A stretch of 44,146 nt of DNA from Gemmataceae bacterium. Lineage in GTDB: Bacteria > Planctomycetota > Planctomycetia > Gemmatales > Gemmataceae. The stretch's first letter is position 1. Every line of letters starts with the position of its first letter. Position numbers and translations under genes: made by a program. The notes below the pieces were generated by a model. The model saw nothing but the letters and a program-made list of their open reading frames with translations. It was not told where the DNA came from and did no database searches. Shown one piece after another: positions 34,000-39,986 of this stretch. The stretch lies in assembly GCA_009692005.1 (NCBI GenBank), contig SHZZ01000029.1, forward strand, positions 1-44,146, read 5' to 3'.

Positions 34000-35199
34000 A
34001 TGAAAAAGGATGCAGCCAACTGCTTGGATGTAGTTTTAGTTGTGGAGGACGAAGAAGCGGTCCTGCGCACATTTCAGGAATGGCTGAGCCAGGGGAACCT
34101 GGGCGTTGAATTGTTGACGGCTGCGGATGCGGAAACAGCCCTGCGTCTGGCAGCGGTGAATAAAATCGACTTGGCTATTTTGGACTGGAACCTGGGCTCC
34201 GGTATCAACGGCCTTGACCTCCTCGAGGATCTGGCGCTTTTTCATCCAGGCTTGACAGCCATCTTGGTAACTGGCTACGCCAACCAGGCAACTCCCCTGC
34301 ATGCCATGCGCATGGGCGTTCGCGATTATCTCGACAAGAATCAAGAACTGACCAGGGAAACTTTCCTGGCGGCGGTAAAAAAGCAACTGGATTGGATCCG
34401 GCCGGTTAAACGGCAAAGAAACTTTTTTGAAGCCCTCAAGGCCTTTCGCGACAATGTCGGCCAAGCAGTCTCCTGGATGGATTCCTCGCATGCCTTGGTT
34501 GAAGAAACACGGTCCAAAGAAGTCATCGGCCATTTGCTGAACGCGCTGCTGTCCCTTGCCGGTGGAAAAGAAGCGTTTTTGCTCATGGACAACTCAGATT
34601 CATCCGAAGAAAAACCCTTGTGCTTCGGCCGGGAAGGAATCCCCCGGAGTGAAGCAGTTCCCTTTTCCAACAGTTTTGCCGGGCAAGCGCTGGGAATGGG
34701 AAAGAGAATCTACTCCCTCCGAATTGATGCCACTTCATCCAACCCACTTTTTACCCTGCAGGAATTTGAAAAAGGTCATGCGCACGCCTTGTTCCTGCCT
34801 CTCTCCCTGGAGGGCATTCGGGGAGTGGTTGAAATCCTTGACCCGGGCGCTTTAAACGAACAGGAAAAACAGGCTTTGGAGCAGGGAGCGCTTTTGGGCG
34901 CTGATGCCTTGCGTCTGGTGGGAAAGCTGGAAAAAAGCGAGGCAGTAATCTTGGAGGCCCTTAAGCAAGCAGAACGGATTACCCTGGAAGCCGAACTGGG
35001 ATCCGCCGCACCCGGAGCTGGAAAGGTCATTGAAAACGCCTTGGCCCAGTCGGGAGTTTCTCGGGCGGAAATCGACTTTTTGGAAATGGTCCGGCATCTT
35101 TCGCGGGATCACGGCCAAGAAGCGCTGAATGCCTGCGGGGAAATGGTTCGCGCCGTCCGCAAGCTTCTCTCCGGGAATTCCGAGGTGCCTGGTGAGTGA
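34000..35199 (+). CDS. Response regulator with GAF-like C-terminal part
   Basis: A 399-residue protein. Residues about 10-130 form a receiver domain. It has the acidic pair Asp17/Glu18 (VVEDEEAV), phosphoacceptor Asp62 (LAILDWNLG), Thr91 (LVTGYAN) and Lys113 (DYLDKN), so it should be phosphorylatable. Residues about 170-320 look GAF-like (AFLLMDNSD, SFAGQALGMGKRIYSL, HALFLPLSLEGIRGVVEIL). The last part is helical. No DNA-binding domain is seen. ATG 34000 follows GAGGGA by about seven bases. The stop overlaps the GTG start of the protease gene by eight bases, so both are made together. No histidine kinase is adjacent. Confidence 0.85.
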   Translation: MKKDAANCLDVVLVVEDEEAVLRTFQEWLSQGNLGVELLTAADAETALRLAAVNKIDLAILDWNLGSGINGLDLLEDLALFHPGLTAILVTGYANQATPLHAMRMGVRDYLDKNQELTRETFLAAVKKQLDWIRPVKRQRNFFEALKAFRDNVGQAVSWMDSSHALVEETRSKEVIGHLLNALLSLAGGKEAFLLMDNSDSSEEKPLCFGREGIPRSEAVPFSNSFAGQALGMGKRIYSLRIDATSSNPLFTLQEFEKGHAHALFLPLSLEGIRGVVEILDPGALNEQEKQALEQGALLGADALRLVGKLEKSEAVILEALKQAERITLEAELGSAAPGAGKVIENALAQSGVSRAEIDFLEMVRHLSRDHGQEALNACGEMVRAVRKLLSGNSEVPGE

Positions 35200-36019
35200 T
35201 TTCAATGCGCCTGGGAACGCGAAATTTAATCTCCAAGAGGCGCTTGAAACCATCTTGCGAGGCGATTGGCTGACGGACTCCCGTTGGCAAGGGGAAGGGG
35301 TGCGTGTTGCCATTCTCGATACAGGCATTTCGCCCGAAGTATTGCAAAAAAAACATGGAGCCAATGGCACGACACTGGAACCGATGGAATGCGTGGTCTT
35401 GCGCGAACAAGAAATCGTTCCCTCCCAGGGCAAGGCTTCCTCGCCGCATGGGACGGTGGTTGCTGACATTCTTTTGAGCCATGCCCCGCGGGCCCGGCTT
35501 TTTTCCGCAGATCTCTTTGGTTCGCGCGCCGGTTCGGACCTGGACCTGCTACTGCGCGGCTTGCGCCTGGCCATGGACACTTGGCAGTGCAAGGTGATTA
35601 ACATTTCCCTGGGGCTTTCCGAAAATAAGGTTCTCCAACCCTGGCGGCGGCTGCAATTATTACAGGTGTTGGAGGAAGCCTATCAACGGGATATTCTGGT
35701 GTTCTGCCCGGCACACAATGACCATCCAACCATCCGTAGTTACCCGGCCCTGTTCGCCCCGCCATTGTTTTCCGTCAACAAAGGTTTCCTCGACGACTTG
35801 CTAAAATTCCGCTACCGCCCTTGGCAGGGAGTGGAATTCGCAGGCCATGGCCAGGCCAGTTTGGCGCCCGAGGGCACGGACCCAGCAACTTCTTGGGCCA
35901 CGGCGCAGGTGGCCGGCATGGCAACCCGTTTAGTTTCTGCCTGGCCAGGAATTAAACCCTTTGAAATGAAAACACTGCTCTATTGGATTTCCGAGTCCTT
36001 GGGAAAGCGAGAAAAATAA
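35192..36019 (+). CDS. Leaderless subtilisin-like (S8) serine protease
   Basis: 275 residues from GTG 35192 (ribosome binding site GAGGT five bases upstream, inside the previous gene). The catalytic triad is intact: Asp43 in VRVAILDTGISP, His86 in SPHGTVVADIL, and Ser234 in PATSWATAQVAG. The oxyanion Asn176 is in FCPAHND. VINISLGLSENK is also typical. The serine motif departs from the usual GTSMAxP (Gly to Ala, Pro to Ala). There is no signal peptide and no propeptide, so it should act in the cytoplasm, which is unusual for S8 enzymes. The eight-base overlap with the response regulator gene links the two functions. The kinase gene follows after about 90 bases. Confidence 0.87.
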   Translation: MSDFNAPGNAKFNLQEALETILRGDWLTDSRWQGEGVRVAILDTGISPEVLQKKHGANGTTLEPMECVVLREQEIVPSQGKASSPHGTVVADILLSHAPRARLFSADLFGSRAGSDLDLLLRGLRLAMDTWQCKVINISLGLSENKVLQPWRRLQLLQVLEEAYQRDILVFCPAHNDHPTIRSYPALFAPPLFSVNKGFLDDLLKFRYRPWQGVEFAGHGQASLAPEGTDPATSWATAQVAGMATRLVSAWPGIKPFEMKTLLYWISESLGKREK

Positions 36020-36110
36020 GGCGTTTTTCACCTGTGGATCTTCTTAACCCTCCCCGGATTTATTATTATGTAAGAGTCCCCGTCCGGTCCCCAAAAGGAA
36101 CCATCCCTTC

Positions 36111-39100
36111 ATGGCAGAAAAAGACCACACCACCGATCCTTACAAGACCCAAATGGAAAGCGTCCCCAAGGGGAAAGGCCATAAGGAAATACCGGAACTG
36201 GTGACGGCGCCAGGACAGTTGGTTAATTCCCAGGTGAACCCAGGTGATTTTTCGCTTGAAAAAAAGGCCAACTTCCCTCGCCTGCCCAATTACGAAATCA
36301 CTCGGGTATTGGGCCAGGGGGGGATGGGCGTGGTTTACCTGGCCAATGACCTGACCCTGAATAGGGTGGTGGCCATCAAGATGATTAGAGAAAGAGTCAT
36401 TGGGTCGGAAGGGTTGGATCGGTTTCAACGGGAACAGCAGGTTTTGGCCCAATTAGAAGATCCTGGAGTGGTGAAGCTGTTTAATTACGGCGTGGAGGAA
36501 GGGCGGCCCTGGTTTGCCATGGAATATTGTCAGGGTGGAACCCTGGACACCTGGCTAAAGGAAAATGCACACCAGGAGGATGGGGTCACCGTTGCCCAAC
36601 AAATGGTCCAAGTAGCCTTGGCAATTCATTCCGCTCACCAGGCGGGAATTCTCCATCGTGATTTGAAACCTGGGAACATTTTTCTTAGTCAAGTTCCCCC
36701 TTCCATGCAAACACGACTGGCCATCCCGTTGCAAGCCCTGAAGTCGATGAACAAGAATCCCTTATTTCAGTACCAGCTAAAGGTTGGGGATTTCGGTCTG
36801 GCCCGGTCTGGCAAATCCTCCTCGGTGACCAAGACCGGCATTGCCATGGGGACGCCTTCTTACATGGCGCCGGAACAAGCGCGCGGAGATAAAATCGGAG
36901 TGGGCTCCGCCGCGGATGTCTACGGCCTGGGGGGAATACTTTACACCCTGCTGACACAAAGAAGGCCTTTTGAGGGAACCCTGGAACAGGTTTTGCGTGA
37001 CTTGCACGACCGAGCCCCCCCGCCCCCTTCAAATTTTAACACCAGCCTGCACAAGGACCTGGAAACCATCTGCTTAAAGTGCCTGGAAAAAAAACCAGGC
37101 AACCGCTATGGCAGCGCCATGGAATTGGCAAACGACCTGGAAAGGTTTACCCAGGGAATGCCGATTTCCGCCCGCCCCTATACGGAAGTGGAAAAGGCCT
37201 GGCGCTGGTGCTTGCGCAATAACACTCTGGCCCTGGCGATGGTATCGGCGATGGTGTTCCTCCTGATTGGCGCGGTGGTCAGCGGCATTTTCGCCGTGAA
37301 AGCCGGCCACCAACGCAATCTGGCCAATCAATTATTAATCAGCGAAAGGAAGGAACGGGAACGGGCGGACAGTTTGGACTATCAAACTCATATCCGTTCG
37401 GCGCAAATGGCCTGGGACGCCGGCCGCGCCGACCTGGCCATGCAAAACCTGGAAAAATGCCCCTGGGATTTTCGCGGGTTTGGCTTTTCCTATTTGGCAA
37501 CGCAGTTTCTCAATAAACAAATCATCTTTCGCGATCATTTGCGCCGGGTCAATTGCGCCAACTTCAGCCCGGACAGGAAAAACATTCTGACCGCCAGCGC
37601 CGATCACACCGTCAAAGTGTGGGACACCTGGAAGGGCGAATTGCTCTTCACCCTGGAAGGGCACAAGGAGGAGGTCACTTATGCTTTATATAGTCCGGAC
37701 GGCAAGCGGGCCGCGTCCGCAAGTTTTGATCAAACCATTATTTTGTGGAATTTGGAACAGAGGAAAGCGGAAAAAATTCTGCGCGGCCACCTCGGCCGCA
37801 TTTTGGCGGTCATCTTCAGCCCAGATGGAAAAACCCTGGCTTCCGGAGGAGATGATGGCACCATTCGGATTTGGGATGCCAGCACGGGCGCCGAAATCAT
37901 GGTCCCCATGGTTTCTCCCGCAGGCATGGTTTTTTCCCTGATGTTTGACTCCAAGGGCAAAAGACTGGTATCGGGGGGTGAAGCCACCCTTTCAACCCCG
38001 GGAGTCCACCTTTGGGATGTCCAAAAAGGCGGAGCCCCTTTAGCCGGGTTTTCCGGTCCCTTTGGGACAGCTTTCAATGTCTTGATTACCCCAGACGATT
38101 CCCAAATCGTGGCCGGTTGCGGTGACCAAACCATATACGCCTGGGACATTCTGGGAAAATCACCTGCCAAGGTTTTCAAGGGCCATGGTGGACGGGTCTA
38201 TTGCATTGATGTCAGCCCCGATGGCCAGTTTCTGGTTTCCGGTGGAGGTGATCAGGCCCTCAAAGTTTGGAACCTGAAATCCGGGGTCCTCTTGCGAACG
38301 CTTCAAGGCCACACGGGGAATGTTTATGGTGTTGCCTTTTGTTCGCAAGGCCGATTTGTGGCCTCGTGCAGTGAGGACACTTCTGCCCGTGTCTGGGATT
38401 TGAACGAGGATTACGGGCCCGAAACCATCCCGCTCAAGAAGGGGACCGCAACCCGTTTTGCTTTCAGCCCGGTCGAGAACATTTTGGCCACGGTTGGCAA
38501 GGAAGGCTGGTTGCAAGTAGTCAGCATTTCAGAAAAAAAGGAAATCTGGAGTGTTCATGCCCATGAGGGGTTTGCCTTTGGTGTGGCTTTCAGCCCCGAT
38601 GGAGAGAAAATCGCAACTTCCGGAATGGATGGTAAGATGCATTTATGGGACAGGCATTCGGGCAATAAAATCCACTCCTTTCTGGGCCATCGGGGAAAAG
38701 TTTTGGATGTAGCTTTTAGCCCGGACGGAAAAAAGCTGGGGTCCGCCGGAGAATTAGGAGGCATCCGAATTTGGGACACCAATGACTTCAAGGAGATCTT
38801 TGTTGTCGCTGGTCACAAAGGCAAAGTTTATTCCCTGGATTTCAGCCCAGATGGCGCTTTCTTGGCCTCAGCGGGAGAGGACGGCCTGGTGAAAATTTGG
38901 GATTCTCAAAAAGGAATCCAAGTTAATTCCTTGCGCGCCTCCAGCACCGGCAGTGAAGAAATCATCGGTGTGGCCTACAACCCTAAAGGAAATTTGCTGG
39001 CCAGCAGTTGCAGAAATTTTTTGACCGGTGACAAGGTGGTGATCTGGGAACTGTCGCCCGAAGGAAAAGAAACTGGCAATCGCAGGGAATTGGAGGGGCA

Positions 39101-39986
39101 CTATTCCTTTATCTATGGCCTGGATTTCAATCCGAATGGGTCAAGAATCATAACGGGAAGCGGCGACCATACCATTAAATTCTGGGAGGTGGACAACGGC
39201 ACGGAAATCCTGACCATTCATGGCCACACGGACATCGTTTCCGGAGTCGGGTTTAACCGAACTGGAAACCTGGCGGCCTCCTGTAGCGGGGAGAATTTTA
39301 TCCGCTTGTGGAGCGCCCAGAAAGAACTTGAATTCCGGACCTTGGATGGTCATTCAGATACGGTTAAGTCCGTCGCCTTCAGCCCTGACGGGAAATGGAT
39401 TGCCAGCAGTGGCGATGATAAAAATATCATCCTGCGGAGTGGAATAAGCGGGAGGTTGTTGCAAAGAAAAACCGGTTTTCCCCAGGGCATTTCCCGAGTG
39501 GCGTTTTCCGCCGATTCCAAGGTTGTGTTAATCGAGGACGCCAAAGGGGTCGTTAGTGGGATGGATACGGAGTATTTCTCACCCTTGTCTTCCCTTCCCC
39601 CTTTTCCCAAGCAAAGCCAATTGGCATCCGCCGATGGACGGATGAATGTATGGAGGCTGGGAGAAACCGGTTCCACCATTCTTATACTCGACCTGCAGGT
39701 TCGCCAAAATAACCGCCAGCACGTCGAAGAAATGATCCGTCGTTGGGAAGTGTTTCCTCCCGGATTTTTCTTGGGCCGGGCCATGCAGGCGCTGGCAGAG
39801 GGTAATGGGCTTGCTGCCAAAAATAACTTTGACATCCTCCTGCAAGAGGAACCCTGGCAAGGCGTTTGGCATGCGGGCATTTCCCTGGCCCAGGCGCAAT
39901 TAGGCAATGCTCCGCAAGCCGCATCCCACCTCATGCGGGCCTTGTTCCTTCATCCCGATCCTTTTACTCCTCTGAAACCCAAGTAG
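36111..39986 (+). CDS. Transmembrane Ser/Thr protein kinase with WD40 repeats
   Basis: 1291 residues. The kinase domain (about 61-350) has LGQGGMGVVYLA (68-79), Lys90 in VAIK, HRDLKPGN (Asp184, Asn189), DFG (227-229) and GTPSYMAPE (247-255). All catalytic residues are present. About 24 extra residues sit between Asn189 and DFG. One transmembrane helix (about 372-397, ALAMVSAMVFLLIGAVVSGI) is followed by a linker and about 15 WD40 repeats (roughly 460-1180; many read SPDGKxLASxxxDxTIxxWD), enough for two propellers. A helical TPR-like tail ends the protein. The repeats probably lie outside the cytoplasm. This plan is typical of planctomycetes. It may be co-transcribed with the response regulator and protease genes. 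Confidence 0.95.
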   Translation: MAEKDHTTDPYKTQMESVPKGKGHKEIPELVTAPGQLVNSQVNPGDFSLEKKANFPRLPNYEITRVLGQGGMGVVYLANDLTLNRVVAIKMIRERVIGSEGLDRFQREQQVLAQLEDPGVVKLFNYGVEEGRPWFAMEYCQGGTLDTWLKENAHQEDGVTVAQQMVQVALAIHSAHQAGILHRDLKPGNIFLSQVPPSMQTRLAIPLQALKSMNKNPLFQYQLKVGDFGLARSGKSSSVTKTGIAMGTPSYMAPEQARGDKIGVGSAADVYGLGGILYTLLTQRRPFEGTLEQVLRDLHDRAPPPPSNFNTSLHKDLETICLKCLEKKPGNRYGSAMELANDLERFTQGMPISARPYTEVEKAWRWCLRNNTLALAMVSAMVFLLIGAVVSGIFAVKAGHQRNLANQLLISERKERERADSLDYQTHIRSAQMAWDAGRADLAMQNLEKCPWDFRGFGFSYLATQFLNKQIIFRDHLRRVNCANFSPDRKNILTASADHTVKVWDTWKGELLFTLEGHKEEVTYALYSPDGKRAASASFDQTIILWNLEQRKAEKILRGHLGRILAVIFSPDGKTLASGGDDGTIRIWDASTGAEIMVPMVSPAGMVFSLMFDSKGKRLVSGGEATLSTPGVHLWDVQKGGAPLAGFSGPFGTAFNVLITPDDSQIVAGCGDQTIYAWDILGKSPAKVFKGHGGRVYCIDVSPDGQFLVSGGGDQALKVWNLKSGVLLRTLQGHTGNVYGVAFCSQGRFVASCSEDTSARVWDLNEDYGPETIPLKKGTATRFAFSPVENILATVGKEGWLQVVSISEKKEIWSVHAHEGFAFGVAFSPDGEKIATSGMDGKMHLWDRHSGNKIHSFLGHRGKVLDVAFSPDGKKLGSAGELGGIRIWDTNDFKEIFVVAGHKGKVYSLDFSPDGAFLASAGEDGLVKIWDSQKGIQVNSLRASSTGSEEIIGVAYNPKGNLLASSCRNFLTGDKVVIWELSPEGKETGNRRELEGHYSFIYGLDFNPNGSRIITGSGDHTIKFWEVDNGTEILTIHGHTDIVSGVGFNRTGNLAASCSGENFIRLWSAQKELEFRTLDGHSDTVKSVAFSPDGKWIASSGDDKNIILRSGISGRLLQRKTGFPQGISRVAFSADSKVVLIEDAKGVVSGMDTEYFSPLSSLPPFPKQSQLASADGRMNVWRLGETGSTILILDLQVRQNNRQHVEEMIRRWEVFPPGFFLGRAMQALAEGNGLAAKNNFDILLQEEPWQGVWHAGISLAQAQLGNAPQAASHLMRALFLHPDPFTPLKPK

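Follow-up and report, generated by a model that had tools for sequence, protein, structure and literature searches.

The window, i.e., the whole 44,146-nucleotide stretch of DNA analysed here, is contig C48 of a Gemmataceae host genome of 4.19 Mb in 99 contigs. A response regulator (RR) gene encoding 399 aa occupies positions 34000-35199 of the + strand, begins with ATG and matches Pfam Response_reg (1.1e-17). It is followed on the same strand by an S8 protease gene of 275 aa (35192-36019), which begins with GTG, matches Peptidase_S8 (1.8e-11) and encodes neither a leader nor a propeptide. The RR stop and the protease start overlap by 8 bases (35192..35199). A membrane Ser/Thr kinase of 1291 aa with WD40 repeats is encoded next on the + strand (36111-39986) and is treated here as a neighbour outside the module. 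The initial annotation had placed these three reading frames, the 8-base overlap and the 91-base gap before the kinase at the same positions, and we reached the same gene map. The other recognisable genes of the window are housekeeping genes (glycine dehydrogenase subunits, RecJ and an S1-domain protein), and no Rfam family matched within the window.

Upstream, the protease frame continues without a stop as far as an ATG at 35129, which would give 296 aa. A GAGG motif lies six bases 5' of the GTG. We favoured the GTG as the putative start because the start codon and the RR stop can overlap by 4 bases in approximately 20 of the 43 orthologous pairs examined. No natural RR-protease fusion was found; where long open frames surround the protease, they are out of frame with the RR. 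Terminator scans, which are weak evidence in general, revealed no strong + strand terminator between the protease and the kinase.

The search covered 102 genomes of one order, identified as Gemmatales from its named relatives; many of the sampled assemblies are incomplete. The protease was present in 94 genomes and the RR in 93; both genes occurred in 92, neither in 7, the protease only in 2 and the RR only in 1. This co-occurrence gave a Fisher p of 1.5e-8, a value that ignores shared ancestry. Each gene is single-copy, except where a contig break divides it. The genomes with one gene were G095, G059 and G080, which are clearly incomplete except for G095. Both genes are missing from every genome of genus g15 (n=3) and from G085, although G085 is 97% complete and its genus-mates carry the pair; the remaining genomes without either gene are incomplete. 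The RR lies directly upstream of the protease on the same strand in 78 of the 92 genomes with both genes, and some of the others are contig breaks. The initial annotation had placed the RR and the protease in one signalling route, and this adjacency bears out a unit of these two genes. It had also raised the possibilities that the overlap would be confined to this genome or that most relatives would carry the protease without the regulator. Instead, tight coupling is widespread (the same 78 genomes) and only the exact 8-base form is unique to the window genome, while the protease was found alone in just the two genomes mentioned, both less than 76% complete (75% and 69%).

In genus g14 and in G031, G024 and G113, the pair is kept even where the two genes are truly or apparently separated; therefore, its retention reflects more than mere linkage. 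Relatives from the order in the named collection were found by an alignment-based scan, a single-protein scan having returned none. Among these loci, a same-strand RR adjoined the protease in 63 of 80, and contig edges accounted for 9 of the remaining 17. The named carriers belong to Gemmataceae/Gemmatales and include Zavarzinella formosa, Limnoglobus roseus and Gemmata sp. IIL30. Public metagenome-assembled genomes titled Bacteroidales or Candidatus Kuenenia (L128, L140, L145 and L146) carry Gemmatales-type copies, and their labels look wrong. Outside the order, no protease ortholog of comparable score was found in 343 genomes of the phylum, and no RR ortholog of comparable score in 149 genomes of the class. 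The RR and protease trees broadly agree, with patristic distances correlated at r 0.95 (43 pairs, without a control gene); shared ancestry alone can explain this correlation, and we did not count it as proof of binding. The agreement is consistent with joint vertical descent of the two genes. Flanking genes vary between loci, and none recurs across 20 large loci of the order. Judged from gene order, the RR and the protease are thus one unit, and the flanks change around it.

In an AlphaFold2 model of the RR (pLDDT 82 overall, lower in the helix), the receiver is followed by a long helix, then by an alpha/beta domain and finally by a helical tail. The receiver (residues 10-116; 34027..34347) is the best-conserved part, with a mean majority-residue frequency of 0.77 vs 0.54 for the GAF domain and tail. 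It carries the response-regulator signature (Asp pocket, phospho-Asp, Thr and Lys), and Asp17, Glu18, Asp62, Thr91 and Lys113 are invariant in 40 orthologs. A long predicted helix (residues 119-166; 34354..34497) connects it to a GAF-type domain (residues 171-332), which together with the helical tail (residues 340-390) spans 34510..35169. GAF_2 was matched in 14 of the 40 orthologs at E up to 0.01, and the window RR itself gave no match. In profile comparison, the GAF domain and tail are homologous to clear stand-alone GAF proteins. No DNA-binding output domain could be recognised in the RR. A Pfam EAD8 match in one ortholog (E 0.009) was judged to be due to chance. The intact Asp62/Thr91/Lys113 and the GAF-like output of the initial annotation were therefore both upheld, the former by invariance and the latter by the GAF_2 matches and the profile comparison.

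The protease was modelled as a bare subtilisin core (pLDDT 86), with subtilisin BPN' as the best Foldseek match (E 7e-12, TM 0.6). The Asp43/His86/Ser234 triad, together with Asn137 and Asn176, is invariant in 47 orthologs; with this triad and the subtilisin fold, the protein is an S8 protease, as had been claimed, and it likewise has no signal peptide or propeptide. No strongly hydrophobic N-terminal stretch was present in any of the 47 orthologs (best 15-residue mean Kyte-Doolittle 1.7, median 1.0). The protease probably stays in the cytoplasm. However, the absence of a signal peptide is no proof of this location; the leaderless PopC of Myxococcus is periplasmic and secreted (PMC6434023).

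The kinase matches Pkinase (1e-44) and contains 12 WD40 stretches in Pfam. Its position was compared in the loci of the named collection with at least 1.5 kb downstream of the protease (n=62). A kinase lies directly 3' of the protease in a single further genome, G027 (= L114), and approximately 26 such kinases are encoded in the window genome. We therefore rejected the WD40 kinase as a conserved third component. The three-gene signalling route suggested initially is accordingly reduced to the RR-protease unit, and its "two phosphorylation inputs" found no support at this locus. A kinase link in some lineages is possible because beta-propeller kinases occur near some distant GAF-subtilase loci (L199 and L207).

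A possible defence response had also been suggested. PADLOC gave weak or generic matches only on the window, and the pair is single-copy, vertically inherited, surrounded by housekeeping genes and near-universal rather than patchy in distribution. A defence island was thus rejected, and a mobile function found no support. In five genera (g2, g12 by a fragment, g20, g24 and g26), genes for a histidine kinase and an NtrC-type regulator (HK-NtrC) stand tail-to-tail with the protease gene; orthologous genes for a histidine kinase and a sigma54-type RR converge with the protease at L044 (10430-12674) and L031 (6461-8649). No histidine kinase is linked to the pair in the window genome. HK-NtrC was rejected as an obligate input since the window genome and genus g17 keep the pair without it, and g15 has HK-NtrC without the pair. 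This neighbour may be a relic of an ancestral locus.

Beyond the order, the closest proteases occupy nine loci in seven planctomycete genomes, detected by the order profile at 98-116 bits or, in two cases, by a wider profile. A GAF gene is directly 5' of the protease at eight of these loci, with 4-base overlaps at L152, L153, L154 and L157; at the ninth, L156, the gene 5' of the protease encodes two receivers plus an Hpt domain (REC-REC-Hpt). Outside Planctomycetota, where the search covered plasmid records, relatives were found in Miltoncostaea oceani (L207) and Gemmatirosa kalamazoonensis (L208), of Actinomycetota and Gemmatimonadota. At L207 (1-6439) and L208 (4327-6193), genes for an ECF sigma factor, the S8 protease and a GAF protein stand in a row, so that the GAF gene adjoins the protease in both; L207 also has beta-propeller kinases encoded 5' of this row, and L208 a nearby caspase-domain gene. 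An ECF sigma gene adjoins 6 of the 11 loci outside the order and is directly 3' of the protease in 4 of the 9 planctomycete loci (L202, L203, L205 and L206). This frequent neighbour suggests that regulators may be among the protease substrates. A profile built from six stand-alone GAF partners aligned with the RR alignment over the whole GAF domain and tail (hhalign probability 96.6, E 6e-10). Therefore, the RR resembles a GAF partner extended by a receiver, which an older GAF-subtilase module appears to have gained in this order only.

We consider it somewhat better than an even chance that the gene pair encodes a signal-gated protease, in which the REC-GAF protein regulates in trans a site-specific cytoplasmic protease. 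The protease would be a minimal subtilisin-type enzyme, probably cytoplasmic, with no propeptide of its own to aid its folding or hold it inactive, and the co-translated REC-GAF protein would take over this job in trans. The RR is the candidate supplier of control because a propeptide-less cytoplasmic subtilase needs control and the RR is co-inherited and co-translated with it. We infer that the REC-GAF protein would physically bind the protease and control it, either keeping it off or assembling and activating it, and that the switched protease would cleave its one or few cytoplasmic substrates in a limited way. The switch would be phosphorylation of Asp62, perhaps together with a small ligand in the GAF domain; i.e., the control input may be GAF (ligand) in the wider family and phosphorylation plus GAF in Gemmatales. 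The co-occurrence in 92 of 102 genomes, the adjacency in most of them, the invariant receiver and triad, and the GAF partnership outside the order argue for this reading.

RssB is a response regulator without a DNA-binding output that directs proteolysis; it carries sigma-S to ClpXP. By analogy, the RR could be a substrate adaptor, phosphorylated or not, that brings a target to an always-competent protease. A receiver with a non-DNA-binding output is the plan of RssB, which is among the fold matches of the RR, and the coupling of the partner genes would also fit. However, RssB has a phosphatase-like output and serves an AAA+ protease, whereas the RR has a GAF-type output with a helical tail and a dedicated subtilase. 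Furthermore, free subtilisins need no unfoldase, and an always-active subtilase in the cytoplasm would be dangerous. We regard the adaptor role as unlikely. It is also conceivable that the RR is itself the substrate and that a single clip switches its signal on or off. In the closest named family, QhpE, the protease works for a single turnover and its gene lies next to that of its substrate (PMC7876137). Nevertheless, all orthologs retain the full-length RR with its tail, and this tail is also present in the stand-alone GAF proteins, which makes this alternative quite improbable.

A peptide-maturation role, in which the protease removes leaders of a modified peptide at a time set by the RR or GAF protein, draws on two distant loci. 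L204 (4749-11288) encodes an ABC exporter with a cNMP-binding domain, a GAF protein, the S8 protease, a 74-residue Cys-containing peptide and a CcpM-like radical SAM maturase, and is possibly a peptide-maturation locus; at L199, the distant pair lies near an ABC exporter. Against this, no maturase, exporter or precursor gene recurs beside the pair in 20 loci of the order, and we consider such a role very improbable for the pair. Finally, the RR and protease could be mere neighbours with separate roles, held together by translational coupling and slow rearrangement. In five genera HK-NtrC has stayed next to the pair, yet its presence does not follow that of the pair; therefore, neighbours can last without a functional tie. 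Against mere proximity stand the joint loss of the two genes, their persistence in genomes where they are separated and the recurrence of a GAF partner beyond the order; we judge it the least probable of these explanations.

A signal-gated protease would resemble two known systems in part. QhpE, a cytoplasmic subtilase of quinohemoprotein amine dehydrogenase biogenesis, cuts precisely once (PMC7876137). Like the window protease, which is probably cytoplasmic too, it is a short cytoplasmic S8 protease without a prodomain and with dedicated partners, and it gave the best NCBIfam match. However, the window protease scored 54.6 bits against a cut-off of 165 bits for NF049966, and eight distant relatives scored 83-123 bits, also below the cut-off. 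The partner of QhpE is a radical SAM system rather than an RR, and no qhp genes were found near the pair in 20 loci or in the window. In Myxococcus xanthus, a leaderless subtilisin-like protease, PopC, is restrained by a dedicated partner, PopD, which a signal removes (PMC6434023). The adjacent partner gene is shared with our pair, and restraint by binding may be shared by analogy. By contrast, PopC is secreted, has a mass of 50.8 kDa and carries an additional N-terminal part, and PopD acts as an inhibitor of secretion and is described without mention of a receiver (PMC6434023). Neither PopC/PopD nor QhpE is an RR-protease system. The GAF-subtilase(-ECF sigma) loci outside the order are similar in that a homologous protease adjoins a homologous GAF partner; they differ in that this partner lacks a receiver and an ECF sigma gene is often attached.

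Response regulators mostly act on DNA or second messengers, and a few are adaptors for ATP-driven proteases. An RR wedded to its own ATP-independent protease, if true, would be a distinct route from a phosphorylation signal to an irreversible event. With slightly less than even confidence, we propose that a phosphorylation-gated, dedicated cytoplasmic subtilase is a new output mode of two-component systems, in which a receiver was added to an ancient, unnamed GAF-subtilase (often -ECF sigma) module of at least three phyla. No published description of the RR-protease pair and no name for the GAF-subtilase(-ECF sigma) loci were found in the openly licensed PMC literature. For cultured Gemmataceae, to which the three carriers named above belong, the analysis provides a near-universal gene pair amenable to direct tests, and the wider GAF-subtilase-sigma loci hint where substrates may be sought. 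Large kinases are encoded beside the GAF-S8-ECF sigma genes at L203 (11150-18886) and L206 (10978-14499); they share an N-terminal region unknown to Pfam, and L203 has two tandem copies that are 59% identical. A possible nucleotidyl cyclase gene (weak Pfam match; L206, 10149-10853) lies just 5' of the GAF gene, and the GAF domain there might read the cyclase product. At L201 (1375-6876), an 1833-residue NACHT-like protein with WD40 repeats is encoded near a GAF-S8 pair.
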